Shown piece after piece: positions 2,378 through 33,674 of a DNA stretch of 38,987 bases; positions within the stretch are counted from its first letter, which is position 1; the number at the start of each line of letters is the position of its first letter. The DNA is from Caldifarciminota bacterium (GTDB taxonomy: Bacteria; Hydrothermota; Hydrothermia; B15-G9; WFZT01), in the NCBI GenBank assembly GCA_015489415.1, contig WFZT01000200.1:1-38987 (forward strand), given 5' to 3'. The translations under genes and the position numbers were made by a program. Below the pieces are notes generated by a model. The model made no database searches. It saw only the letters and a program-made list of their open reading frames with translations, and was not told the DNA's origin.

Positions 2378-5004
2378 TAACTTCCCTCATCTTCTTTTTG
2401 ATATCGAGTGGGGTGTCAATCCCGCCATCGTTCCAGAAAACGCTGTCAGAGACATCAGACTCCATGGTATCGACATGGTTTTTTGAAGCCTCCATGCGCC
2501 CGATAGATCTCTACCGCGCGGAGCTGACCGGTGCACGCCTGAGAGCAACTTCACACTGGCTCGGAGCGGTTTCGATGCTCATGCCGCCCGATAATGTGAC
2601 CCATGTCGCCGAAATCTTGAACGCCACAGGTGTCTCGCATGTCATGTCCTTGAAGGCCCAATTCGATGAACGGGAATATGTGCCGAAAAATATGCCGCTC
2701 TACGATCCAAACGACTACGGTTCATCCTACGATCAGGTTTCAACCATAAACGCTGTGTCCATGCACAAGAACGGATTTGTCGGCGAGGGAGTTGTAATCG
2801 GCGTGTTCGACACAGGTTTTGACTCCACGCATCCGGCAATATCCCATCTGTGGAGCGGCAACCGCATAGTCGCTCATTACGATTTCGCATCCGGCGATCA
2901 CATAGCCTCAATTTATGGCGAAATACCACTGCCCTATTCCGAGGACATAAAGTTTGTCAATTCGATGGATGTGGCGGGAGCGGATAGCTTCTTTTTGATC
3001 GCTTACAGCATGGCCACAGAAAATGACCTTGCAGCGTTCCCCTATATCAAAAATAAGTGGCGTATCGGTGTGACGATAGGCCAGACCGAGCTTGGACATG
3101 CGTTCTGGAACCCGTTACCCCCTGTGGTTAGGGACTCCTTTGCCATAAGCCCATCGATAAGTTACCAGAGCGGCCTGATTTATCTGGCATATCAGGCGAA
3201 GGAGATTAACTACGATTTCAACATCAAATTCGTAAAGTTCGACACGCTTGGGCACATCTATGTCGGTCCGTTGAGGATAAGCAACACCGCTGAAGCCGAG
3301 CTTTTGCCGCAGATATCCGTTAAAGGTGACACCGTGTGGATATTCTGGGCCACAACGCATTCGGTAAATGTGGCTGTATCGACGAATGGGGGCTCAACAT
3401 TCGAGACAACAAGGAGTTTTGAGGTTGCGGAAAGCGGTCAGGTGGGCGGAAGTGACCTCGTTTCGTATGGGGACAGTCCGATCTTCATAGTGTCCATCAA
3501 CAACCGCATCCTGTTCGCAACGCCAGATTCACTGCTGAATTTGAGCGTTCAGGGCGTGCTCCCCTCGGCCATATCGACCGACAGCCTAATTCATCTCGTG
3601 TATGTCGAGGGCGACACCATCAAATACATTGAGATAAACTCGCTTCAGGCGGGCGCTCCCATAACGGTGGCCCAGGGATTTAGCGGGATTAAGCCTGCCG
3701 TATGGGACGACAACGGCGAAATAAAGGCGGTTTACACAGAAAAGAACGGCGATCTGGTGTCAGCCTCATTATCGGACGGCCATGTCGATACCCTTGCGAA
3801 CACGCTTACTGATTTCGTTTCATCAAACGGAAACTTTATGGCATGGCGTCAGAGAGGCGACCCTGACATATATCCGCAGAACTACATACGACACAGCGGG
3901 ACATCGCAGTATCACGGCACCAAAGTGCTTTCTGTGATAGGTGGCTTTTATCAAAGCCGCCTGATCGGGGTTGCTCCGGGGGCCAAATTCATCCTCGCAA
4001 GGACTGAGAAAACCACGACCTCAAACGGGGTGAATTTCGAGAACCAGATAGAAGAGGATTTCTGGATCGAGGCTCTCGAATGGGCTGCTGCTCACGGCGT
4101 TAACATCGTTTCCAGCTCATTGGGATACGCTGATTGGTATCGTCGCTCGGACATGGATGGACGCACCGCCCCGATATCGCGTGCTGCAAGCAAGGCTTTG
4201 CAACACAACATTCTGGTGGTAAATGCTATGGGCAATGTCCGACATCAATCTTTTCCTGATCCGCAGCAGGGAGACACAACGCTTGTGGCACCGGCAGATG
4301 CGGAGGGCATCATTGCGGTCGGTTCTTATGAGGTCGATTCTGTAACAGGCGAGCTTTTGCCCCCGTCAGGCGCACTTGGCCCGACGGCCGATGGGAGAAT
4401 TAAGCCAGAGGTGATAGCGCCATACTGGGTGTTCACAGCCGCTGACCGTTATCTCGACAACGACACAACATTTGTGACTTATTTCCTGTATTCGGCCGGC
4501 ACATCCTACGGCACTGCACTGGTGTCAGGCGGAGCTGCTCTGGTCTGGCAGGCACATCCGGACTGGACTGCCGCACAGGTAAGAGAGGCCATCCTCGAAA
4601 ACGCAAAACCCGTTGAGATACCGGATTATCCAGACGCTCCAATTCCGAACAACATAGTTGGATGGGGACTGATAGATGTTGCCGGTGCAGCTGGAGTCGG
4701 AGAACCGGGCCAGGATGTGACCAAAAAGGACAAAGTCCTCACGCCGTATCCAAGTCCTGCCAGATACGGACAACCCATTGTGTTGAGATTCAACCTGTTC
4801 CATGCATCAGACATATCGTTCTATGTTTATACCCTCAACGGAGAGATGTTGAAAAATATAGAGATTCCTGGGAAAAGCTACGGCTACAATGAATTTACAT
4901 GGGATGGGCTGGACGACAAAGGGAACCCGCTGCCGCCCGGACTTTACATCCTCGTGATGGTGACCAACAATTCCGTTTCCACAACAAAGTTCGCTGTGAG
5001 GTGA
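2374..5004 (+). CDS. Secreted S8 subtilisin-like protease with large insertion and FlgD-like C-terminal domain
   Basis: An 876-aa exported serine protease. It begins with a short signal peptide (ITSLIFFLISSGVS). The catalytic triad is D146 (GVFDTGFDSTHP), H514 (HGTKVLSVIGG) and S711 (AGTSYGTALVSGG); the oxyanion Asn is N621 (NAMGN). The gap from Asp to His is about 370 residues instead of the usual 30-60. The insert (about 170-500) is beta-rich with sialidase/BNR-like phrases such as VAVSTNGGSTFE, suggesting a beta-propeller. Residues ~795-876 form a FlgD-like Ig domain ending YILVMVTNN...FAVR, the type used as a sorting or anchoring tail in FCB-group and candidate-phylum secretomes. An AGGAG precedes the ATG, which overlaps the M20 gene. 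An extracellular peptide-degrading role with the M20 enzyme acting downstream is inference. Confidence 0.88.
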   Translation: MITSLIFFLISSGVSIPPSFQKTLSETSDSMVSTWFFEASMRPIDLYRAELTGARLRATSHWLGAVSMLMPPDNVTHVAEILNATGVSHVMSLKAQFDEREYVPKNMPLYDPNDYGSSYDQVSTINAVSMHKNGFVGEGVVIGVFDTGFDSTHPAISHLWSGNRIVAHYDFASGDHIASIYGEIPLPYSEDIKFVNSMDVAGADSFFLIAYSMATENDLAAFPYIKNKWRIGVTIGQTELGHAFWNPLPPVVRDSFAISPSISYQSGLIYLAYQAKEINYDFNIKFVKFDTLGHIYVGPLRISNTAEAELLPQISVKGDTVWIFWATTHSVNVAVSTNGGSTFETTRSFEVAESGQVGGSDLVSYGDSPIFIVSINNRILFATPDSLLNLSVQGVLPSAISTDSLIHLVYVEGDTIKYIEINSLQAGAPITVAQGFSGIKPAVWDDNGEIKAVYTEKNGDLVSASLSDGHVDTLANTLTDFVSSNGNFMAWRQRGDPDIYPQNYIRHSGTSQYHGTKVLSVIGGFYQSRLIGVAPGAKFILARTEKTTTSNGVNFENQIEEDFWIEALEWAAAHGVNIVSSSLGYADWYRRSDMDGRTAPISRAASKALQHNILVVNAMGNVRHQSFPDPQQGDTTLVAPADAEGIIAVGSYEVDSVTGELLPPSGALGPTADGRIKPEVIAPYWVFTAADRYLDNDTTFVTYFLYSAGTSYGTALVSGGAALVWQAHPDWTAAQVREAILENAKPVEIPDYPDAPIPNNIVGWGLIDVAGAAGVGEPGQDVTKKDKVLTPYPSPARYGQPIVLRFNLFHASDISFYVYTLNGEMLKNIEIPGKSYGYNEFTWDGLDDKGNPLPPGLYILVMVTNNSVSTTKFAVR

Positions 5005-10791: not shown

Positions 10792-12509
10792 AAAAAGAAG
10801 ATAAAAACCCCAAAGGCACCTCTAAAAACAAAAACGAAATGAGCAGGAAGGAAGCAATCTTCCAAAAGATAATTTTAAAGGCGCGAGAAGCCAAAAAAAT
10901 ATCTTATCAGGACATCAGGAGGGAACTGCCCGAAGAACTCTATTCAGAAAATGTCATAGACGAGCTAATGAACATACTTGCCGAAAACAACATCGAGGTT
11001 TACGACGAGATCGAGCGCAAAAATAAAATCATGAAAGAGGCCGCAGAAGAGGAAGACACTTACATCATCATCTCGGACGACCCGGCAAAAACATATCTCA
11101 AGCAGATTTCAAACCTCAACCTTCTGACCAAAGAGCAGGAAGTTCAGTATTCCAAACAGCTTGACGACGCCCGCATCGCTATACTCAGAAAGATCTTCAG
11201 GACCAAATACGGTCTCAACAGGCTGCTCCACTTCATCAAATTGACAGAAGATGGCGTAATGCAAGTGGAGGAACTCGTTCAGGTCGATTCGCAATACTGG
11301 ACATCGAGGCAGAAAAACAGGAAGGAGAAAGCGCGTGCGCACAAGGCGTTTGAATTCATAAAAGTTCGGGTCGAGGCGCTGCATCCTTACTGGGACAGGC
11401 TGGACGATTTGACATCCGAAGAACGCAAGACTTACAGGGACAAAGTCAAGGTGATCGTCCGCAAGATAGAAAACCTGAAGCCGCAGTTTCGCAAAGTAAT
11501 GGAGATAGTCAAAGGGTTTGAGGAGGAAGTGCGCCGTCTCGAGGGACTGTGGGAAAAATACGATCAGAAGAAAAAGGGTTACGAGGAGATGCTGATGAAA
11601 AACGCCGAGAGGGGCGAGGATGACTTTGAGGATCCGCGCCTGGCGATTGTGGAGTCTGAGCTTTACGAGTTGAAAGAGGAGATCGACAGGATTGAGGATA
11701 AGCTCGGAATGAATCTAACAAAAGCCCGTGAGATAGCGAAGCAGATCGAGGAGTATCGCAAACAGCTTGAGGACGCAAAGGCCAAGATGGTTGAAGGCAA
11801 TGTTAGACTTGTAATCGGAATTGCCAAACGGTTTATGAACCGCGGGCTTGAATTCATCGACCTGATACAGGAAGGCAACGCCGGTCTAATCAAGGCTGTC
11901 GAGAAGTTCGATTACAGAAAAGGTTACAAATTTTCAACTTACGCCACATGGTGGATCCGCCAGTCGATAACACGCGCAATAGCCGACCAATCGCGCACCA
12001 TACGCGTGCCAATCCACATGATCGAGACGATAACCAAGGTCTCACGCGCCACGAGGGCACTCATGCAGGAGCTGGGTCGTGAGCCAACCATCAAAGAGAT
12101 CTCAGAGTATCTCGAAATGCCGATCGAGAAGGTGAAGCAGGCGCTTCATGCGGCCAGAGAGCCGATCTCAATAGACAAACCGATCGGCAAGGATCAAGAC
12201 AGCTTTATCGGCGACTTCATCATCGACCACATGCAGAAGACACCGTTTGAATACGCAAGGGAAACTCTACTGCGCGAGAAGATCGAGGAGGTTCTCTCCA
12301 CATTGACGCCGCGCGAGAGGAAAGTCATAGAGTATAGATTTGGCCTCAACGACCAGCAGCCCAAAACGCTTGAGGAGGTTGGCAGGATATTCAATGTCAC
12401 GAGGGAGCGCATCCGTCAGATAGAGGCCAAAGCACTCAAAAAGCTGAAACAACCAAACCGTGCAAGCAAACTGCGCATGTTCATTGAAGCACCTGACAAA
12501 CACATGTAA
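10788..12509 (+). CDS. rpoD: Primary RNA polymerase sigma factor (sigma-70)
   Basis: A 573-aa primary sigma factor. A lysine-rich region-1.1-like N-terminus is followed by region 1.2 ([21 protein letters not shown], about 100-140) and a long charged, coiled-coil-like non-conserved segment (about 150-335). Then come region 2 ([45 protein letters not shown]), region 3, and region 4 with its helix-turn-helix ([20 protein letters not shown]). AAGGAGGG lies 9 nt before the ATG, which overlaps the dnaG stop. A strong terminator follows. The segment between regions 1.2 and 2.1 marks a primary, not an alternative, sigma factor. Confidence 0.97.
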
Positions 12510-12530
12510 TATGAGGGCGGAAGACAGATT

Positions 12531-12556
12531 CGGGCGGCCTTCGGCCGCCCGTTTTT
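12531..12556 (+). terminator. Rho-independent terminator of dnaG-rpoD
   Basis: A 9-bp GC stem (12531-12539 with 12543-12551) with a TTC loop is followed by five T residues. It lies 22 bases after rpoD. Only 22 bases remain before ssnA, so ssnA must rely on read-through or on a promoter inside the rpoD end. Confidence 0.9.
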
Positions 12557-12578
12557 AATTCTGACAGGGAGAACTGAC

Positions 12579-13868
12579 ATGGATTTCGTAATCGGACATG
12601 GTGTTATAACCGATGGGGCTGGTTTCATGCTCCATGATGGAGCAATTCACATATCCGACGGCGTCATAAAGAAAATCGATACCACCGAGCGCCTGAGATC
12701 GGTATCAGAGACATTTTACGATCTCGGAGGGCGGCTCGTCCTGCCCGGACTTACTAATTTCCATCATCACCTCTACTCTGCACTCGCAGCCGGCATATCC
12801 CCAGCAGGCCCAACTGACACCTTCGTGCAGATACTCGAAAACCTGTGGTGGAAACTCGACATGGCACTCGACGAGGAAACAATTTACTTCTCGGCACTTC
12901 AAGGGGTTATGGATTCCGTGGCACACGGCGTGACCACCATATTCGACCACCATGCATCGATGAACTTTATTAGGGGCAGCCTCGACATAATCGCCGATGT
13001 GTTTCGCAAGGCGGGCATAAATGGATTGCTATGCTTCGAGATGTCCGACCGCGCAGGAAATGAGACCATAAACGACCAGCTTCAGGAAAACATCGAATTC
13101 TGGGAAAAACATCGCAACGACAGGAACATAAAGGGTATTCTTGGCCTGCATGCGAACTTCACGCTTTCGGAGAAAACGATGGAATACATCTCGAAAGAGA
13201 AGCCCGAAGAAATGGGCGTCCACATCCACTGCGGCGAGGATAGATATGATTTCGACTACTGCCAAAAGCTTGGGTATGCGGGGCCGGTGGACAGGCTCGA
13301 TAAGTGGAATCTGTTGAACGAAAAAACGATACTCGCACATGCAATACACTTAAGCGACAGGGATTACGAGCTTATCAGGGACAAAAAGCCTGTGGTGGTC
13401 TCCAACCCGGAATCAAACGCCAACAATCAGGTAGGCGTCATGGACAGAAAGAAAATTCAAGAATTCGTCCTCGGAACTGACGGTATGAGCGGCGATATGG
13501 TGCAAACATTGAGGTCGCTTTACCTTCTGGGCAGAGGCCACCTTGAGGATTTCACAGGGCTGAGAGAATTGTTCTTCGACAGGGCTCGCTCTTTCCTGCA
13601 GCGCTTCTTCCCCGAAAAAGGCGGCTTAAACGAAGGAGCAACGGCGGACATCGCTGTGCTCGATTACACTCCGGTTACCCCTATCAACCTCGATAACCTC
13701 ATCGGACACCTGATATTCGGTGCGAAAAACGCACACGCCTTCATGACAATCGCCAATGGCGAAATCGTCTATCACAACGGCGAATTCAGTTTCGTGGATG
13801 CTGACAAAGCGAGAAAAGATATCAAGAAGGCTGCTCGTAAGCTGTGGGATAGGTTCAGAGAGGCCTGA
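12579..13868 (+). CDS. ssnA: SsnA-type amidohydrolase / aminohydrolase
   Basis: A 429-aa metal-dependent hydrolase of the amidohydrolase superfamily (chlorohydrolase/guanine-deaminase-like branch). The metal motif is H62-H63-H64 in TNFHHHLYSALAAGI; further ligands are in VHIHCGED (H215, H217, E220), LAHAIHLS (H254/H257) and GTDGMSGD (D301). The early LPGLTNFHHHLYSA phrase, TTIFDHHAS and SNPESNANNQVGV are close to the SsnA family, known from selenium-dependent molybdenum hydroxylase loci; the substrate is unproven. AGGGAG lies 7 nt before the ATG. The last 14 codons lie inside a 91-bp repeat whose second copy is 1.8 kb downstream. It may be linked to the molybdenum hydroxylase gene upstream. 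Confidence 0.8.
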   Translation: MDFVIGHGVITDGAGFMLHDGAIHISDGVIKKIDTTERLRSVSETFYDLGGRLVLPGLTNFHHHLYSALAAGISPAGPTDTFVQILENLWWKLDMALDEETIYFSALQGVMDSVAHGVTTIFDHHASMNFIRGSLDIIADVFRKAGINGLLCFEMSDRAGNETINDQLQENIEFWEKHRNDRNIKGILGLHANFTLSEKTMEYISKEKPEEMGVHIHCGEDRYDFDYCQKLGYAGPVDRLDKWNLLNEKTILAHAIHLSDRDYELIRDKKPVVVSNPESNANNQVGVMDRKKIQEFVLGTDGMSGDMVQTLRSLYLLGRGHLEDFTGLRELFFDRARSFLQRFFPEKGGLNEGATADIAVLDYTPVTPINLDNLIGHLIFGAKNAHAFMTIANGEIVYHNGEFSFVDADKARKDIKKAARKLWDRFREA

Positions 13869-13917
13869 AGTCAAGACTCATAACGGCTCTGAGGAAGAAC
13901 TTATCAACACCATCGCT
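13827..13917. repeat. 91-bp direct repeat, left copy (ssnA 3' end plus beyond)
   Basis: This segment matches 15635-15725 with 5 mismatches (13832, 13835, 13873, 13893, 13909) and no gaps. It holds the true last codons of ssnA. On the minus strand it also holds a spare copy of the last ~20 codons of the Wzi-like gene, ending MSLDFRPL and stop. Together with the right copy it brackets the ATPase gene. Confidence 0.95.
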
Positions 13918-15634
13918 TACTTAAATTCGATAGCGCGTTTCACAAAATTCATTTTGCAACAATTCATTTTGAGATCCCCCCTGTAATCCCTTCCTGTCCT
14001 CCGTCCAGAAGCCCACCTTTGTTGAAAATTTGGGGCTTTAAGGCTATCATCTGCAATGCAATTGAGCGTCGTCACCTCGAGTAGATGCGTTGTCTTAGCC
14101 TGGATGAGGATGATTGGTTAGGTTAAACTGATAGTCCTATGGAGATGCAAATGCTTGAAGAGGCCAAAAATTTTGTCAGAAATAACAGGATAACGAAAGA
14201 GGAAATATGGGAAAACATTTCTCTAAACAACAGAAAACTCCCTCACAGATTTCTATTTGAGAAGCTAAGAAAGTATGTCAGGGATTTTCTGAGTAATAGA
14301 GCTATTGAACCGAGAATGGTGGGGATCGCCGGGATTAGAGGCGTGGGCAAAACCACCCTTTTATGGCAAATAGGTGACTTTGTGAAGGCCAACTTTAAAG
14401 ATGTAGATGTTTTTTTTCTAAGCATGGACATCGCAAGCGACTATGGTTTTAAAAGTAAAACAATCATAGAAGCTTTAAAAGAAGTTATAACTCCACAAAA
14501 GAAAACTGTTCTGCTGTTCGATGAAATACAATATATGGAGAATTGGGCTCTTATGCTGAAAATAATCTATGATAAGTTTAAACACTGCTTCATTACAGCC
14601 ACTGGAAGCTCATCTTTACTAATCCATTCCACTGTGGATCTATCAACAAGGTGGAATCTGGAATCCCTTTATCCTCTTAGTTTTACAGAGTTTATAATGA
14701 TAAAATCGTGGCTTAAAAATCGTGGAGGGAAAGGGATACTACCTCAAAAAGGACTTAGTGAGAAACTGAAAGATGCCCTATTCGCGTCGGAAGGTGCTGA
14801 GGGAGTAGCTTCAAAATTAAACAAAGTTGAAAACGAAATTCAGGAATATTTCTTGAAAATCGAAAAAGCAAAAAGAACCATGAGATGGCGAAATTGGGGA
14901 GGTTATCTTAAAGAATACATTTTCTACCACAATATACCGAGATTACTGTTGATCGACGAGAAACACACCATCCTCCTCAGAGTTTTCGATCTGCTTCATA
15001 GAGTGTTATATCAGGATTTGAGGGAATTTTACGAACATAACGAAATTAGAAAAATCTGGAGGCTTTTGAGATACATAGCCTTTTCGGATGAGATCAACAG
15101 GGAAAAACTATCTAAAGAATGGGGCATTAGCAAAGAAAAAATAGATAACATCGTTGATAGTCTGGTAAAATCCGAGTTACTTATGAAATTTCCTGCCTAC
15201 GGAGGGATCAAAACGAGGCTAAAAAGGGAAAAGTTGTTCTTTGCATCTCCAACAATGAGATACGCAATTATCAATATATCTTCCCCTACGGAGAAATTTT
15301 ATTCCAAACTTTATGAAGACATTACCGCACTGTATTTGAAGAAAATCTTTAACGGGTTGGTTTTGTATGGCGGGACGGCAGGCGACAGATCACCTGATTT
15401 CATAATAGAAATCGACGATAAAATCCTTCCAATTGATGTCGGAACGAGCAAGAATGATGTATCTCAGCTGAATTCAGTGAAAAATAAAAGATATGGATTA
15501 CTTATAAATCTCAATTCGGATAAGGTTCAAATAAACAACGATAATGTGATAATCCCTCTCAAGTGGTTCCTTCTTGTCGCCTGACCAGGTTGATGCTTGA
15601 AAGGAGAATTTGTCTACGGCAACTTCTTCTTTTC
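13918..15634. mobile_element. Inserted segment carrying an AAA ATPase gene, flanked by 91-bp direct repeats
   Basis: The 1717 bp between the two repeat copies consist of 221 bp of non-coding DNA, one AT-rich ATPase gene and 50 bp of tail. Removing the insert plus one repeat copy would join ssnA and the Wzi-like gene as directly convergent genes with overlapping ends, which is the likely ancestral layout. There is no transposase or integrase and no terminal inverted repeat is obvious. The leader holds a short repeat, AATTCATTTTG at 13946-13956 and 13961-13971. The repeat structure is directly seen; the label as a mobile unit is inference. Confidence 0.65.
14139..15584 (+). CDS. Archaeal-type AAA ATPase with DUF4143-like C-terminal domain
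   Basis: A 481-aa P-loop ATPase of unknown role. Walker A is GIRGVGKTT (65-73, K71), Walker B is VLLFDEIQ (D128, E129), and a sensor-like TATGSSS follows at 153-159, then a TRWNLESLYPLSFTEF segment typical of the AAA_14/DUF4143 family. The middle holds a charged, coiled-coil-like insert and a winged-helix-like region. The C-terminus (SPDFII...LPIDVGTSK) looks like a PD-(D/E)xK nuclease fold, but the usual E-x-K is D-V-G, so nuclease activity is doubtful. Such ATPases are common in archaea and thermophiles and often patchily distributed. Starts at 14139, 14145 and 14151 are possible; GGAG at 14141-14144 favours 14151. The gene is much AT-richer than ssnA and is bracketed by direct repeats. Confidence 0.85.
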   Translation: MEMQMLEEAKNFVRNNRITKEEIWENISLNNRKLPHRFLFEKLRKYVRDFLSNRAIEPRMVGIAGIRGVGKTTLLWQIGDFVKANFKDVDVFFLSMDIASDYGFKSKTIIEALKEVITPQKKTVLLFDEIQYMENWALMLKIIYDKFKHCFITATGSSSLLIHSTVDLSTRWNLESLYPLSFTEFIMIKSWLKNRGGKGILPQKGLSEKLKDALFASEGAEGVASKLNKVENEIQEYFLKIEKAKRTMRWRNWGGYLKEYIFYHNIPRLLLIDEKHTILLRVFDLLHRVLYQDLREFYEHNEIRKIWRLLRYIAFSDEINREKLSKEWGISKEKIDNIVDSLVKSELLMKFPAYGGIKTRLKREKLFFASPTMRYAIINISSPTEKFYSKLYEDITALYLKKIFNGLVLYGGTAGDRSPDFIIEIDDKILPIDVGTSKNDVSQLNSVKNKRYGLLINLNSDKVQINNDNVIIPLKWFLLVA

Positions 15635-15725
15635 AAGGCCGCCCGTAAGCTGTGGGATAGGTTCAGAGAGGCCTGAAGTCCAGACTCATAACGGCTCTGA
15701 CGAAGAACTTATCAACCCCATCGCT
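15635..15725. repeat. 91-bp direct repeat, right copy (Wzi-like gene 3' end plus ssnA-end remnant)
   Basis: This is the second copy of 13827-13917, offset 1808 bp and about 95% identical. It holds the true minus-strand 3' end of the Wzi-like gene. On the plus strand it holds a remnant of the ssnA end (KAARKLWDRFREA and stop) with two silent Ala codon changes. Of the five differences, four are synonymous in the gene concerned, and one changes Val to Leu in the Wzi-like frame. Confidence 0.95.
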
Positions 15726-16886
15726 GTGAGCGTAATTCACGACATAGGAGGGAATAAGCTTGAGGTTTAAGGAAATACCCTGAAACACCCTGTAACCTTC
15801 AACGCCGAGGCCAAGCTCAAACCTCTGTTCAACGACACCCGTGAGGAAATTATCAGGAGGCCATTGCCCCACAGGTGGATACTCGTGAAGCGAGCCCTCC
15901 CCCTTAAAGGTAACGGCAGCCATCGTCCAGAACTTTCCGTTTTTTAACTCAAGGTAAAACCTTTCAAAATCCGCCCCAAGCGAGTCGCCGATGGGCCTAT
16001 CGTGGAAAAGATAATTTGTAAAATGGCCTTTGTGGATATATGTCCATCTCGTAGCGCCTCGATACTGAGCCTTTATCAAAGATTTCCCAAGGCTTAAGTT
16101 TAGCTCAATTCCCCAAGCAAGTTTACCTTTCTCGCCACGCACTGAAATGTAGGGATAATCGTCTATAAGGAGCTCGCCAACGATGTCCCAATTTCGGCCG
16201 GTGTATCCTGCCCACAGATCCCAGAAGACATTCGACTCGCGGTCAAAAGGAATCTCGTTGAAAACCTGATAAGTGTAGTAGAGCGTGAGAGGATTCAGAT
16301 AATACGGGACAGGCATCTGATTTTTGCCCCCGTATATGACAGATTCAGCCCATCCAAGGCGCAACCCTCTGTTTTTGCCGGGTTTAACTTCAAACCCATG
16401 AAACGACAGATACCTGTTAGCGGAATCCATCGGATCAAGCATACCCGTTCCGAAAACAAGCTCAGCATTCCACAACTTCTCGATGGATGCGCGGATAAAT
16501 CCCATGTCCAGATATGTTCCGTTTGATGAGAAAATGAGCCCCATAGGGCCAATTTTGATGCTATCGCGACCGAACTTGACCGTTAAATCGAGCCATTTGC
16601 TCGAATGGTGATAACTCACGAACCCCTTCTTAAATCCGCCTGCGAGCACGCTGTACCACAATTTATCCGGATATTCAGGGAAACCAGCCGTTTTGATGTA
16701 TGGCTGGAACCCAGCCGTCCATTTGCCATCTGAATAGAAAAGACCAAAAGTTGCCTCTCCACCAGCAGCCGTATCCCCTTTCAAGAAAACAACACCGCCG
16801 TAGATGTTCGGGGTACCGACTTTCAGGTTTAAAGGGTTAACATTTAGGGCTTGTGCGACGAGGATGTATTTAAGAAAAACTATCAC
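15663..16886 (-). CDS. Wzi-like capsule-assembly outer-membrane barrel protein
   Basis: A 407-aa predicted outer-membrane beta-barrel, likely involved in surface anchoring or assembly of the polysaccharide made by the neighbouring locus. A short hydrophobic N-terminus (IVFLKYILVAQA) acts as a signal peptide. The rest is alternating beta-strand sequence with a terminal aromatic-containing strand (AVMSLDFRPL). Family-like features are NRYLSFHGFEV, the GWAESVIYGGK segment, PYYLNPLTLYYTYQ, and DRPIGDSLGADFERFYLEL, the last close to the HPLGP...FYLEL pattern of Wzi homologues. The start is GTG at 16886, overlapping the dehydratase stop (GTGA), so the two are coupled. The 3' end lies in the right 91-bp repeat and originally overlapped the end of ssnA. 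Confidence 0.75.
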   Translation of the reverse strand: MIVFLKYILVAQALNVNPLNLKVGTPNIYGGVVFLKGDTAAGGEATFGLFYSDGKWTAGFQPYIKTAGFPEYPDKLWYSVLAGGFKKGFVSYHHSSKWLDLTVKFGRDSIKIGPMGLIFSSNGTYLDMGFIRASIEKLWNAELVFGTGMLDPMDSANRYLSFHGFEVKPGKNRGLRLGWAESVIYGGKNQMPVPYYLNPLTLYYTYQVFNEIPFDRESNVFWDLWAGYTGRNWDIVGELLIDDYPYISVRGEKGKLAWGIELNLSLGKSLIKAQYRGATRWTYIHKGHFTNYLFHDRPIGDSLGADFERFYLELKNGKFWTMAAVTFKGEGSLHEYPPVGQWPPDNFLTGVVEQRFELGLGVEGYRVFQGISLNLKLIPSYVVNYAHSDGVDKFFVRAVMSLDFRPL

Positions 16887-18889
16887 CTTATTCTCCTGTA
16901 TCCTGTATGTCTCTTCTTTCTGGTGTGTTTCGGTTCTTCTCTAATTTGTGGCCTGGAACTCTCGAATTCCCTGTTTGGTTTGTAAGAAGGGATAATCTCC
17001 ATCATGTGATAGATAATTTCATCCCTTCTCATTCCGTTTGCGAGCTCATGTAAATAAAAAACCCTATCCATAAGTTCCTCGGGCGACATCTTCTGGCTAA
17101 GCCTTGCCTTAAATATCTTATGGTGTTTTGTAGCCTCTGTGCCTTCCTCGGCCGTCAACAACTCCTCAAAAAGTTTTTCGCCCGGCCTGATGCCTGTGAA
17201 AACAATCGGTATATCGACATCCGGTTTGTAGCCCATCAATGTTATCATCTCGCGGGCGATATCGACGATTTTGACAGGCTCACCCATATCAAGGACAAAC
17301 ACTTCTCCACCTTCACCCATAGCACTTGCCTGAAGAACGAGCAAAACGGCTTCAGGGATAGTCATGAAATACCTCTTCATATCGGGATGCGTCACGGTCA
17401 CAGGGCCTCCACGCTGTATCTGCTCCTTGAAGATGGGCACTACACTGCCACGACTGCCAAGCACATTTCCAAACCGAACCGCTATGAACTTTGTGTCCCC
17501 CATCTCGTTCAGGGCAAGTATTATCATCTCCCCAATTCGCTTGGATGCCCCCATTGCGCTGGTGGGGTTAACCGCCTTGTCAGTGGAGATAAAAACGAAC
17601 TTTTCAACACCTGCGTTTATGGCCGCCATCCCAACATTGTATGTCCCTATGATGTTCGTCTTCACCCCTTCCTCCGGGAAAGCCTCTATCATGGGAACAT
17701 GTTTGTAAGCGGCTGCATGGAATACCACATCGGGCTTGTGTTCCATAAAAACCGCCATCGTCTTCTCCCGATCCCTGACATCCGCGAGAACAGGCACAAA
17801 CTTAACATGGGGAAAACGGTATTTAAGCCTTCTGTGCGTGTCGAAAAGGCGTGTTTCATCCAGCTCAAACAGGATAACTTTTGAAGGATCAAATCTGGCC
17901 ACCTGACGACATAATTCCTCGCCTATCGACCCCGAAGCTCCCGTAACCAAAACTACCTTGCCCTTAAGAAATTTGTTAACGATATCCATCTCAATGGATA
18001 TCTGATCCCTTCCGAGCAAATCGGCCACAGAAATATCTCTAACATCCCTCATGTTCACCGTGCCATTCACAAGCTCGGCAATCGAAGGCAATATCTTTAT
18101 GTCGGTAACGCCAGCCTCTCTTGAAAGGTTTACGAATTCCCTGACATCCTTACCAGAAGCTGAAGGTATGGCAATTATCACAGTGTCAACATCCAGATTC
18201 TCTATGGTCTTTTTGATTTTATCTCTTCCACCTATAATCCTTATTCCGTGCAGCAAAGTATTCCATTTAGAGGGGTTATCGTCAATGATCCCAACCACCT
18301 TGAAATTTTTACCATCTTTGATGAGACTGCGAACCAGTTGTTCGCCGGCGTTACCAGCTCCGATCACCAGTATTTTTTTATGGTTACCGTTTCCATTTCG
18401 TCTGAATGCCTGAAAAGATCGGAAAGTATAGGCACTCAGCCTTTTGGAAAATCGCGCCAGCCCTATCAGCGCCAAAGACAGGAGAAAATCTATGATAAAA
18501 ACGCTTCTTGGTATAGGGGTAAGCATAAATGACCTTGTGGCAATGAAATCGTAACCCGTGTAAAATGCCATAGTGGCAAAAACATTTGCAACTGCTATCT
18601 GAAGCGCGTCTCCGATACTGGCGAACGACCACGAGATGTTGTATAGCCGAAACATCCAGTAGATGGGTAATTTTGTAACCACAGCCGTCATGTATATGAT
18701 GCCAAGTATCTGAATGTAGGAGGATAACGAGGCTGGATCATCTTCAAATCTCAACAGGAAGGCCAGATAGATGGACAATAGCAGACTTATGACATCCGTC
18801 ACAATGAAAAAAACATGCCTTGACCATGGGTATCTTCTTATATGCCATAGCAATTCTCTAATTCCACGGCCCAACTTAAAACCTTTCAT
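16883..18889 (-). CDS. Membrane-bound nucleotide-sugar 4,6-dehydratase (FlaA1/CapD/WbpM/PglF type)
   Basis: A 668-aa enzyme expected to convert a UDP-HexNAc (usually UDP-GlcNAc) to the 4-keto-6-deoxy sugar. About four membrane helices (about 15-140) precede a first Rossmann domain (VIGAGNAGEQLV) and the catalytic SDR domain with TGASGSIGEE (~316-325). The active site is M446-x3-K450 in SAMGASKR, with Met in place of Tyr as is normal for the large WbpM/PglF group. The C-terminal tail is basic. The ATG at 18889 is chosen over an upstream TTG at 18913 because AAGGAGGT lies 7 nt before it. With the DegT aminotransferase upstream it would give a UDP-4-amino-4,6-dideoxy sugar. It leads a two-gene unit with the Wzi-like gene after a 420-bp gap. 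Confidence 0.9.
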   Translation of the reverse strand: MKGFKLGRGIRELLWHIRRYPWSRHVFFIVTDVISLLLSIYLAFLLRFEDDPASLSSYIQILGIIYMTAVVTKLPIYWMFRLYNISWSFASIGDALQIAVANVFATMAFYTGYDFIATRSFMLTPIPRSVFIIDFLLSLALIGLARFSKRLSAYTFRSFQAFRRNGNGNHKKILVIGAGNAGEQLVRSLIKDGKNFKVVGIIDDNPSKWNTLLHGIRIIGGRDKIKKTIENLDVDTVIIAIPSASGKDVREFVNLSREAGVTDIKILPSIAELVNGTVNMRDVRDISVADLLGRDQISIEMDIVNKFLKGKVVLVTGASGSIGEELCRQVARFDPSKVILFELDETRLFDTHRRLKYRFPHVKFVPVLADVRDREKTMAVFMEHKPDVVFHAAAYKHVPMIEAFPEEGVKTNIIGTYNVGMAAINAGVEKFVFISTDKAVNPTSAMGASKRIGEMIILALNEMGDTKFIAVRFGNVLGSRGSVVPIFKEQIQRGGPVTVTHPDMKRYFMTIPEAVLLVLQASAMGEGGEVFVLDMGEPVKIVDIAREMITLMGYKPDVDIPIVFTGIRPGEKLFEELLTAEEGTEATKHHKIFKARLSQKMSPEELMDRVFYLHELANGMRRDEIIYHMMEIIPSYKPNREFESSRPQIREEPKHTRKKRHTGYRRIR

Positions 18890-28891: not shown

Positions 28892-30706
28892 CTAATCTAT
28901 CCTAAAGTTTATTTTATCGCTAAATGAATAAAATAAATAGCCTACATTCATAATAGTTGCTTGTTGCTGCGACTTGTCGTAGAATGCAAAATGCCAATTG
29001 AACTTACCCCCGAAATTCTCAAGTAAAAATTCCACAACGTTATTGATTAAACGACTTCTATATTTAAGTTTTATAAATTCGATATAATTACCCTCATAAA
29101 AATTTAAGTACTTTTGAATAAACTTCCTTTTTACCAGAAATAAATCTATGGGTAAGTACCCTTTAAGAAAACAACATACTCTATGCCTAAAAGGAATTCT
29201 TTCAAAGGAGAAACCATAATGTGATTTAATCCTGGCTAATTCTGGAGCCAATTTTCTTATTAGTGCAGCTTCAAACTCTCCGTTAACTCCAATAAAAGGG
29301 GTAGCCATATAACCTAATCTTACGGTAGGGGCATCGATAAACGGTGTCATATAATAGACTAATTGATTGTGAGCATTGTTATTTACTCCATCCCCATCAG
29401 GCATCCTTACTTCGCTGTAGTATCTTCTAATTGTGTAAAAATCTATTTTGTTCTTTAATTCAATACCAAGTCTATTAGATATTTTTCTTATCATCCTTAT
29501 GTAACTCTCAACAAATTCATCCTTATCTTTAATAAATGAAGGTGTATATGGATAGTATTCATATCTGAGAAACCATTTATATGCATTGGTTCGTATATTA
29601 AATGATGGAGGGAAACAATAATAATTTCTAAGAACCTCTCCCCCTAAACCATTAAGAGAGAACTTATCATCCATAAGGGTAGTTTTTTTATAACTACTTG
29701 TATATACCTCGCTGAAGGCCCCCATATTGAAAGAGGAACGGCCATCAAAATAATATAAATTATCATCTAAGATATCCTGTATAGTTGATTCATCCATATC
29801 CAGAATTTGTTTCGTAGGAATGATTTTAATATCCTCGTTGATTAATCGAGCTATCTCTTTAGCATAATAATAATCTTCGGTATGTACTCCTTCTGTTAAA
29901 TGGGTTTGCAATCTTAATGGGGAATTTGTCACACTTTTAAAAAGAGCAAGTATTAATCTACTATCAAATCCACTCGAGATACCAAGCTCAGGTTTATAAT
30001 TCTCAGCAAAATCTACAAAATATTTAAAATAATTTTTCAGATTTTCTGCGACATAATCAACACATTTATCAAAGCCCGATGAACAAAATTTTATATTATC
30101 CAACTTTTTAGGACAAACTTTCACTTTAATCCCATCGCTTTCAAAAAGATATATATTTTCAGGGACGAGTTGCATAATTTCATTAAACAATGTATCCGGA
30201 CCTACAATGAAACCAGTTGTAAGTTTTTCAACAAAAGCTAACTCGTTAATACTTAATTTCCCCTTATGACCACCTATTAAGGCCAAAAAAGAATTAGAAA
30301 TCAACTTATTAGTAACATCAAAAAATACTCGCTGGACAAACAATGGATCTATGATAAAAGTGAGATATTTCTTGTCATTGTCCCAATACAAAATCACATA
30401 CTGTCCAATTAACTGCTCACAATTCAATGAAGAAGTGTTTAAATCTTTTAGAAGTTTTCTTAAATTCTCGTCTAAAGAGGAAGATTTTCTATAAATCCAT
30501 GTGCCATTTGATATTAAACAATCACCCTTTTCGTTGCAGAAAAAATCACTTTCATTTGTTAATTGTTTTGGGAAAAGGTTAACATGCCAGTGTCCAAATT
30601 TAAATTTATGCTCATTAAAAAAACCTTTCTTTAGAAAGATTTCTCTTGCGGATTTTAAATCTATATTATTTTTTGATTGATCTTTGTATATTAGGAACGA
30701 GCCCAT
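28892..30706 (-). CDS. Asparagine-synthetase-like amidotransferase without Cys2 (first of two)
   Basis: A 604-aa protein with an N-terminal Ntn/glutaminase-like domain (about 1-205) and a C-terminal ATP-pyrophosphatase domain with the PP-loop SSGFDSRL (244-251, a variant of SGGxDS). The sequence starts MGSFL, so the catalytic Cys2 needed for glutamine hydrolysis is missing. The enzyme should still adenylate a carboxylate, then use ammonia or another amine, as beta-lactam-synthetase-type relatives do. AGGAGG lies close to the ATG and overlaps the stop of the polymerase gene. AsnB relatives in O-antigen loci (for example WbpS, WbtH) make uronamides. The role here is inference. Confidence 0.85.
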   Translation of the reverse strand: MGSFLIYKDQSKNNIDLKSAREIFLKKGFFNEHKFKFGHWHVNLFPKQLTNESDFFCNEKGDCLISNGTWIYRKSSSLDENLRKLLKDLNTSSLNCEQLIGQYVILYWDNDKKYLTFIIDPLFVQRVFFDVTNKLISNSFLALIGGHKGKLSINELAFVEKLTTGFIVGPDTLFNEIMQLVPENIYLFESDGIKVKVCPKKLDNIKFCSSGFDKCVDYVAENLKNYFKYFVDFAENYKPELGISSGFDSRLILALFKSVTNSPLRLQTHLTEGVHTEDYYYAKEIARLINEDIKIIPTKQILDMDESTIQDILDDNLYYFDGRSSFNMGAFSEVYTSSYKKTTLMDDKFSLNGLGGEVLRNYYCFPPSFNIRTNAYKWFLRYEYYPYTPSFIKDKDEFVESYIRMIRKISNRLGIELKNKIDFYTIRRYYSEVRMPDGDGVNNNAHNQLVYYMTPFIDAPTVRLGYMATPFIGVNGEFEAALIRKLAPELARIKSHYGFSFERIPFRHRVCCFLKGYLPIDLFLVKRKFIQKYLNFYEGNYIEFIKLKYRSRLINNVVEFLLENFGGKFNWHFAFYDKSQQQATIMNVGYLFYSFSDKINFRID

Positions 30707-32003: not shown

Positions 32004-33674
32004 TTAATTAAGGTAATCAAACCATCTTTCTAAACATTCTACTACATAATGTGGTAAAGTTTCGATAAATTCAGGTCCCAAAATTTCTGACAATACTCTT
32101 TTCTCTTTGATTCGACCAGGCTTTTCCTCATCATATACACGCTGAATATGTCCTTTTTGCTTTAAAAACAGAATCTTCCTTTTTCTCCACACTTTCTCTA
32201 TAAAACTTGAAGCTATATATAAATTTTCCAATAATGTATATTTAAACTTTTTTGTTCCCTCTTTAGGTTCTAACTTAAAAGGGAAAAATATTCCCATAAT
32301 ACTCCTTCTTGTTGGAATATAGCAACATTTGCTGTCAAGATTAAACAAAACATTAGAATGAATATTTTCCATCTCCTTATACCAATAGGGAATAGTCCTT
32401 GCGAGCTTAACCGATTGATTAGTAAGAAAAGGGAACCAAAGCTTAATGAAAATGGACCCTATATGCAAATTCGCGATCCCAAATCTTTCAAAATATCTAA
32501 GATATATTTCATCGATAATTTTATCCATTCTAAGATGCATGTTCACATCTATTTGGGACCTCAAATAGCCAATGACTTCTTTGGTATCAATGCTACTTTT
32601 TCTTCTTATAAACATATATTTCAACATAGTGTAAAGTTCTTTCTCTCCAATGCCATTCCTTTTTAATTTGCTACGTGGATAAACATATCTGGTCCAGAAA
32701 TCTTTATAAATTTCTCCTGGAAAGCCACTTATAAGAATATCATAATTTTCTCCCTTATACAAATTGTTTCTATAAATACTTGAAATAAACCTACAATCTG
32801 TTAACCCAGTTACGATGAAATATGCTATTTCCTTAATATCAATGTTTTTTTCAAAATTACTATCTGGTGGTGGAAAATACTTCAAAGTCGGCATACACTT
32901 TTCTTTGAACATATAAGAAAATTTCTTATCATAAGGATCTCTATTGCTAACATACAAATCTAATTGGGGAATGGTATTGTACCCAATAAAAGAGGTAATT
33001 CTGCTATCACTTCCGCCTGACAAATCGGATAAGAATAAATCAAATTTTTGGGATAAATATAAATAACCTCTTTTCATTATCTCAATTAGTTGAATTGATA
33101 CATCTTTTACATCTGCACTTGTATCCTCAAAGTCGGAATCGAGCTGATAGGTATATATGTAATATTTTCCGTAATTATTAACTGTAAATACTTCTTCTGC
33201 GGCCAGAGCTTTAATCCCATCATAAACAGTGTTATGCGGGGTAGTTCTACCACTAACAATCCAAAATTTTATCTCATCAAGGTTAGGAGAAGCTTTTAAA
33301 ATTTTGGCAATTTCATAAGATATGGAGGATAAAAATATTTTTCCGTTTTTATAACTATAGTATAAAGGGTACAAGCCTGATAAATCGCTTATAATTTTTA
33401 TTTCCACCGGGGTTACAAAAATCAATGTAAACATCCCATCAATGTCAAGTGCCTTTCTGGGGTTATAATAGATCTCGAAAAGAGTGCTCTTCCCTGTAAA
33501 GCCATATATATCCCCTAACATATATAAATTAATCTTATCATGATTGAGATAACCAACCTTATTAGAATAATAAATTATGTATTGGTTCCATGTTTCACTA
33601 TTCATTTTTATCCTGTCTGCAAACAAAGGCTTAATATCTTTGGGTAATATGCTAAAATATGTAAAAAACTTCAT
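32004..33674 (-). CDS. Asparagine-synthetase-like amidotransferase without Cys2 (second of two)
   Basis: A 556-aa relative of the gene at 28892 but only distantly similar. The PP-loop is intact (LSGGSDSR, 218-225). The N-terminal part keeps the Ntn-like domain layout (DIDGMFTLIFVTP, SDLSGLYPLYYSY) but begins MKFFTY, so it also lacks Cys2 and a glutaminase site. It should activate a carboxyl group with ATP and accept ammonia or an amine from elsewhere. It overlaps the downstream-lying glycosyltransferase gene (34900 side) by ATGA and precedes the polymerase by 3 bp or more. Two such paralogues in one glycan locus is unusual. Confidence 0.83.
   Translation of the reverse strand: MKFFTYFSILPKDIKPLFADRIKMNSETWNQYIIYYSNKVGYLNHDKINLYMLGDIYGFTGKSTLFEIYYNPRKALDIDGMFTLIFVTPVEIKIISDLSGLYPLYYSYKNGKIFLSSISYEIAKILKASPNLDEIKFWIVSGRTTPHNTVYDGIKALAAEEVFTVNNYGKYYIYTYQLDSDFEDTSADVKDVSIQLIEIMKRGYLYLSQKFDLFLSDLSGGSDSRITSFIGYNTIPQLDLYVSNRDPYDKKFSYMFKEKCMPTLKYFPPPDSNFEKNIDIKEIAYFIVTGLTDCRFISSIYRNNLYKGENYDILISGFPGEIYKDFWTRYVYPRSKLKRNGIGEKELYTMLKYMFIRRKSSIDTKEVIGYLRSQIDVNMHLRMDKIIDEIYLRYFERFGIANLHIGSIFIKLWFPFLTNQSVKLARTIPYWYKEMENIHSNVLFNLDSKCCYIPTRRSIMGIFFPFKLEPKEGTKKFKYTLLENLYIASSFIEKVWRKRKILFLKQKGHIQRVYDEEKPGRIKEKRVLSEILGPEFIETLPHYVVECLERWFDYLN

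Follow-up and report, generated by a model that had tools for sequence, protein, structure and literature searches.

A direct repeat of a convergent gene junction brackets an AAA_14-DUF4143 ATPase gene, and locus-specific brackets recur across the family

In a 38,987-bp contig (WFZT01000200.1 of assembly GCA_015489415.1, from a Caldifarciminota bacterium), referred to here as the window, a solitary ATPase gene lies between two direct copies of a 91-bp sequence, each containing the overlapping 3′ ends of the two convergent genes that flank the insert. Direct repeats specific to a single locus also bracket other AAA_14-DUF4143 genes, about ten times more commonly than they bracket ordinary genes, and this association is well supported by the observed counts. 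The explanation we favour, though with no better than even confidence, is an insertion coupled to a long target duplication of variable length, without integrase or transposase.

The duplicated gene junction

The two copies of the repeat, at 13,827–13,917 and 15,635–15,725, are spaced 1,808 bp apart and align over 91 bp with 5 mismatches (repeat positions 6, 9, 47, 67 and 83) and 0 gaps (95% identity); repeat finding reproduced exactly the coordinates given in the initial annotation. No longer, gapped extension was found by self-BLAST, and repeat finding returned no inverted pairs of at least 20 bp in 12,000–17,600. The genome assembly contains the 91-mer at these two positions only, and a chance origin is excluded by its BLAST E value in the genome (4e-35).

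To the left is the gene of an ssnA-like aminohydrolase (12,579–13,868, plus strand, 429 aa; Amidohydro_1), the final 42 bp of which lie inside the left repeat copy; its top NCBIfam model is SsnA (419.6 bits, under the model's cut-off of 444). Facing it on the minus strand is a gene of 407 aa of the Wzi-like or outer-membrane β-barrel type (15,663–16,886), with its final 63 bp inside the right copy. Its 3′ end is in the repeat as had been claimed; the assignment to Wzi is a weak one, the Pfam match being below cut-off (E = 0.027). The ssnA stop codon maps to repeat positions 40–42 and the Wzi-like stop codon, on the other strand, to positions 29–31, which gives the two genes a 14-bp overlap. 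Because of this overlap, an insert can spare both genes only if the junction is duplicated. Both genes are intact: ssnA uses the end in the left copy and the Wzi-like gene the end in the right copy, and each copy also has a spare end of the other gene. The locus supports the original reading of an insertion that duplicated a convergent junction.

Between the copies are 1,717 bp with one gene, comprising a left spacer (13,918–14,138), the ATPase gene (14,139–15,584, plus strand, 481 aa) and a right spacer of 50 bp (15,585–15,634). At the end of the right spacer, an inverted repeat, CTTGAAAGGAGAA ... TTCTTCTTTTCAAG, was recognized by eye (15,596–15,637), its last 3 bases falling inside the right 91-bp copy. 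The ATPase gene is the only open reading frame of size in the insert, in agreement with the earlier statement that no integrase is present, and there is no transposase either.

Beyond the insert, a long minus-strand cluster (16,883–38,627), as judged from translations only, includes sugar epimerase/dehydratase, aminotransferase, glycosyltransferase and flippase-like genes, as well as two asparagine-synthase-like genes (28,892–30,706 and 32,004–33,674), and is probably involved in surface polysaccharide synthesis.

The ATPase and its family

The window ATPase is composed of an AAA_14 domain (Pfam E = 7.7e-25, 87.8 bits against a cut-off of 27) with Walker A (GIRGVGKTT) and Walker B (LLFDE) motifs, a helical/winged-helix middle and a DUF4143-like C terminus of the PD-(D/E)XK type, which scores 27.7 bits for DUF4143, just below the Pfam cut-off of 28.1. 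It aligns over its full length with 47 family members besides two close relatives, and all seven of the listed PADLOC PDC-S01 models match it, as judged by E value (best 5.3e-29) rather than by PADLOC cut-offs. By these sequence criteria, it is classed as a divergent AAA_14-DUF4143 protein and a relative of PDC-S01. Asp420 of the PD-(D/E)XK-like motif is invariant in 50 sequences. In all four close members the E/D of the motif is kept, the usual Lys is replaced by Gly, and a Lys is found three residues on; nuclease activity of the window ATPase is therefore uncertain.

A structure model built from 3 sequences was too weak (pLDDT 50.6); with 50 family sequences, AlphaFold2 gave a confident one (pLDDT 91.7). 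A PDB fold search places it nearest to the solved folds of ORC/Cdc6, RuvB and STAND-type AAA+ proteins, a general similarity only, and no solved structure matching the ATPase by sequence was found. Peptide-pattern searches of GTDB contigs for wider relatives gave nothing beyond one distant clostridial gene.

According to PMC12988326, PDC-S01 ranks fourth in frequency among prokaryotic defences and consists of an ATPase joined to a member of the PD-(D/E)XK group, and validation is still pending for most such defence candidates; no anti-phage validation of PDC-S01 itself was found there. Bracketing long repeats are not mentioned in the DUF4143 and PDC-S01 literature within our coverage, which takes in few subscription papers, and the titles and abstracts of the COG1373 literature hold nothing on mobility of such genes. 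The association between bracketing repeats and AAA_14-DUF4143 genes is provisionally new.

Over the promoters of many AAA_14-DUF4143 genes is a palindrome of their own (for example, TCCACAAAAGTTGAACTATTGTGGA), different in each lineage. Such palindromes lie at 2,820–2,890 of locus L151 and upstream of the ATPase in L153, L146, L138, L154, L165 and L176, and are possible autoregulation sites. Two or three adjacent genes of the family are found at L258, L266 and L271, which suggests insertion hot spots.

The locus in a second species

The same arrangement is present in another species of the order (G007), which has ~90% nucleotide identity to the window over 7.5 kb, identical gene order, the ATPase at the same site and matching repeat ends. 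Identity between the two species is 84% in the left spacer (206 aligned bases, with gaps) and 90% in the right spacer. The dN/dS values between them are 0.10 for the ATPase, 0.08 for ssnA and 0.14 for the Wzi-like gene, and purifying selection acts on the ATPase as it does on the genes beside it. At two variable positions of the repeat, 18 and 71, the copies agree within a genome, and at none do they agree by side; this small number of sites suggests gene conversion between the copies since the two species separated.

The window comes from a fragmented metagenome-assembled genome with 8% reported contamination, and the repeat might for that reason be an assembly or binning artefact, as the initial annotation had allowed. 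However, the independent assembly of G007 has the identical structure at 90% nucleotide identity, and bracketed ATPases are likewise seen in a genome assembled as one contig of 3.26 Mb (L268) and on a complete plasmid. We reject an artefact as exceedingly improbable because two species have the structure in common. The contig itself (G000:C200) may be misbinned, given the contamination and the placement of its relatives: its close relative, G007, is of another family, and three genomes of the same genus are without close relatives of ssnA or the ATPase.

A search for the uninterrupted, single-copy ssnA/Wzi junction that had been proposed as a check found none among 10 genomes of the order. Only in G007 are ssnA and the Wzi-like gene side by side, and there the ATPase and both repeats are present. 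Relatives of the two genes in other members of the order are distant or in other contexts, and in G009 ssnA and the ATPase are on separate contigs with other neighbours.

Brackets across the family

AAA_14-DUF4143 loci from the phylum were surveyed in two batches, the DNA before each gene being compared with the DNA after it. Direct repeats were found at 15 of 53 loci in the first batch (1.5-kb flanks; this batch includes the window locus with its two closest relatives) and direct-repeat brackets at 22 of 39 in the second. With 700-bp flanks, 32 of all 92 loci had direct brackets of at least 35 bits, 25 of at least 50 bits and 17 of at least 80 bits, against 4, 0 and 0 for inverted repeats at the same loci. 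Left flanks compared with right flanks of different loci in the same genome gave 5 matches of at least 35 bits in 176 comparisons (4 of at least 50 bits, 0 of at least 80), and flanks from different genomes gave 0 in 300. Ordinary genes were rarely bracketed: 6 of 297 genes of 250–650 aa, from genomes matched to both batches, reached 35 bits (3 reached 50 bits and 0 reached 80), as did 2 of 260 other genes. Of the 297 genes, 42 have gaps of at least 60 bp on both sides, and 3 of these 42 reached 35 bits (0 reached 80). Fisher tests against the 260-gene controls, a set overlapping the 297-gene set, gave p = 8e-19 to 4e-11. Direct, locus-specific brackets are therefore far commoner at AAA_14-DUF4143 genes; merging orthologous loci left 23 strong brackets (at least 50 bits). 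The suggestion that similar ATPases elsewhere would lie between other long repeats is clearly borne out over the 92 loci.

The bracketing repeats vary in length from about 40 to 460 bp, many are intergenic or within promoters, and the right copy begins no more than 60 bp from the stop codon in roughly half of the strong brackets. Dispersed repeats are rejected as a general cause because of the direct/inverted and cross-locus controls; they are present in the repeat-rich families f23 and f28, and probably account for certain brackets (L274, L181 and L137). Other genes near such ATPases are also bracketed, at a lower rate, by repeats of up to 179 bp at 96% identity (L158, 944–2,524; L141, 2,905–3,879; L168, 554–1,189; L182, 554–1,366).

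On plasmids, 1 of 16 loci is strongly bracketed and one more weakly. A complete Glaesserella plasmid carries an 88-bp bracket (87.5% identity), with the right copy 25 bp past the stop codon; the repeat was found nowhere else in PLSDB, and no empty site for this insertion was found among plasmids. The pattern therefore reaches beyond the phylum, while being less frequent in this small 16-locus sample.

Empty sites and the moving unit

At locus L151 (G003), the ATPase gene lies between 48-bp repeats containing its palindromic promoter. On another contig of the window's assembly (G000:C174), the L151 flanks, at 91% and 94% identity, join over a single 45-bp copy without the ATPase, and this is a precise single-copy empty site of L151. 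The repeat copies in G003 are 85% identical, whereas the flanks of G003 and G000 are 91–94% identical; because the copies diverge more than the species do, the G000 state may result from loss of the ATPase by recombination between the repeats, rather than represent the state before insertion. No empty sites were found for L265 and L274, the flanks of which are non-contiguous in relatives.

In a CRISPR locus (L140), the gene order, with names read from the proteins, is cas3–cas4–ATPase–(last ~450 bp of cas4)–nucleotidyltransferase, and at L147 the cas4–nucleotidyltransferase junction, named in the same way, is uninterrupted. HEPN-like genes also lie alongside at these loci, and the two species have rearranged versions.

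The ATPase genes of L271a and L274, from different genera and contexts, are 93% identical in DNA, and the shared stretch reaches no further than 54 bp upstream and 25 bp downstream of the gene, which points to the gene with little else as the moving unit. At L151, L153/L150 and L265, the right repeat copy consists of the promoter region of the ATPase itself, in one case together with the first ~95 bp of the gene. Located between the ATPase and the right repeat of L150 (G005) are ~900 bp (3,081–3,976) with two small minus-strand open reading frames, toxin–antitoxin-like by size, which are absent in G007.

Origin of the brackets

Insertion coupled to target duplication is favoured because of the direct orientation, locus specificity and variable length of the repeats, the intact host genes and the single-copy empty site. 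At the window locus, the ATPase gene with its upstream region and ~50 bp past its stop codon would have entered where the 3′ ends of ssnA and the Wzi-like gene overlap, at a time before the window's species and G007 diverged, and duplication of the 91-bp target stretch would have left both host genes whole. The recurrent pattern would be one of family genes inserted singly, without integrase or transposase, between locus-specific direct repeats of variable length. A likely route is a break with strands cut far apart or with resected ends, at which the gene would be captured and the ends filled in; the cuts might be made by the ATPase-nuclease itself or by host repair. Afterwards, the repeats would recombine, through gene conversion at the window locus, as two sites suggest, and perhaps through clean loss at the empty site. 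We infer that duplication and insertion were one event, as we infer the origin of the ends and the role of the protein. Several observations weigh against the coupling. Brackets that duplicate a promoter (L151, L153/L150 and L265) fit tandem duplication and deletion better, some genes with wide intergenic gaps on both sides are bracketed too (if never at 80 bits or more), and strong brackets are scarce on plasmids. Repeat length is inconstant, some genomes have dispersed repeats, and the divergence of the L151 copies makes G000 possibly a loss. A bolder proposal, that PDC-S01-type ATPase-nucleases are single-gene mobile elements whose protein makes two distant nicks and whose own gene is captured at repair, leaving target duplications that are long and variable, with no transposase, integrase or terminal repeats involved, is distinctly unlikely.

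The exact gene-level duplication, the intact host genes and the missing recombinase could also be accounted for by Campbell-type homologous integration, in which a molecule, circular or transferred, has the ATPase next to a copy of the junction, recombines with the host junction through host RecA and so duplicates the shared 91 bp. The conversion-like sites of the repeat suggest that the copies do recombine, and brackets that include the ATPase start (L153/L150) fit homology-driven events; but a donor with the ATPase already at that junction is needed, anew for each locus-specific bracket, and we consider this unlikely. Unlikely to much the same degree is a duplication separate from the insertion, either an earlier local tandem duplication or a tandem duplication of the upstream region and ATPase followed by loss of most of the second copy. 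Right copies that are the ATPase's own promoter speak for it, and L140 and L147 resemble a rearranged tandem array. The window repeat, however, is the host junction and ends 221 bp before the ATPase; given that the host genes overlap and that the repeat is their junction, no ATPase can have been there before a duplication, and a prior duplication demands a second event exactly between the copies.

The site at gene 3′ ends, a repeat length within the range of att sites and an insert free of recombinase would suit a cis-mobilisable element, either the remnant of an integrase-type element or its satellite, whose attL and attR lie at gene 3′ ends and which is mobilised by an integrase encoded elsewhere. 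This we regard as very unlikely, as the one-gene insert has no integrase remnant, related brackets have no common core (the cross-locus comparisons above) and many are intergenic or in promoters. As a family-wide account, integrase-type integration is unlikely and largely refuted because there is no integrase and no core shared between insertions. The related idea in the initial annotation, of a segment that arrives with a junction copy of its own in the manner of integrases, is not supported: there is no sign of an attP-like copy, and related ATPases lie between different, locus-specific repeats without a common att core.

Significance

AAA_14-DUF4143 ATPases are among the commonest prokaryotic accessory genes and are a leading unvalidated defence candidate, and the bracketing suggests an undescribed way for such genes to enter, and leave, genomes. 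Recombination between the repeats predicts easy, clean gene loss, which would explain a patchy distribution. Because the physical trace is repeatable (direct repeats specific to the locus, one precise empty site and overlapping host genes left intact), the movement is testable, insertions and losses can be dated and counted, and the part of the nuclease domain versus that of host repair becomes a question that can be asked. If self-insertion is true, a major candidate defence family owes its spread to it.

Comparison with known systems

The window ATPase resembles PDC-S01, a PADLOC candidate single-gene defence, in domain order, P-loop, DE Walker B, C-terminal PD-(D/E)XK-like motif and solitary gene; unlike typical PDC-S01, with which it is ~20–25% identical, it is slightly longer, has a DUF4143 score just below cut-off and has Gly in place of the motif Lys. 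Like insertion sequences and casposons, the insert is bracketed by direct target repeats, and one related locus has a single-copy empty site, but transposase and terminal inverted repeats are absent. Target duplications of insertion sequences are roughly 2–15 bp, and those of the family are about 40–460 bp; the 91-bp repeat is, as first described, far longer than such a duplication. Integrative and cis-mobilisable elements with att sites likewise preserve gene 3′ ends through a duplicated end; here, in contrast, there is no integrase, a single gene is inserted, both convergent ends are duplicated and no common core is found. Long target duplications of variable length are also made by non-LTR retrotransposons through target-primed insertion, but the window insert is without reverse transcriptase, and the similarity is one of outcome alone.
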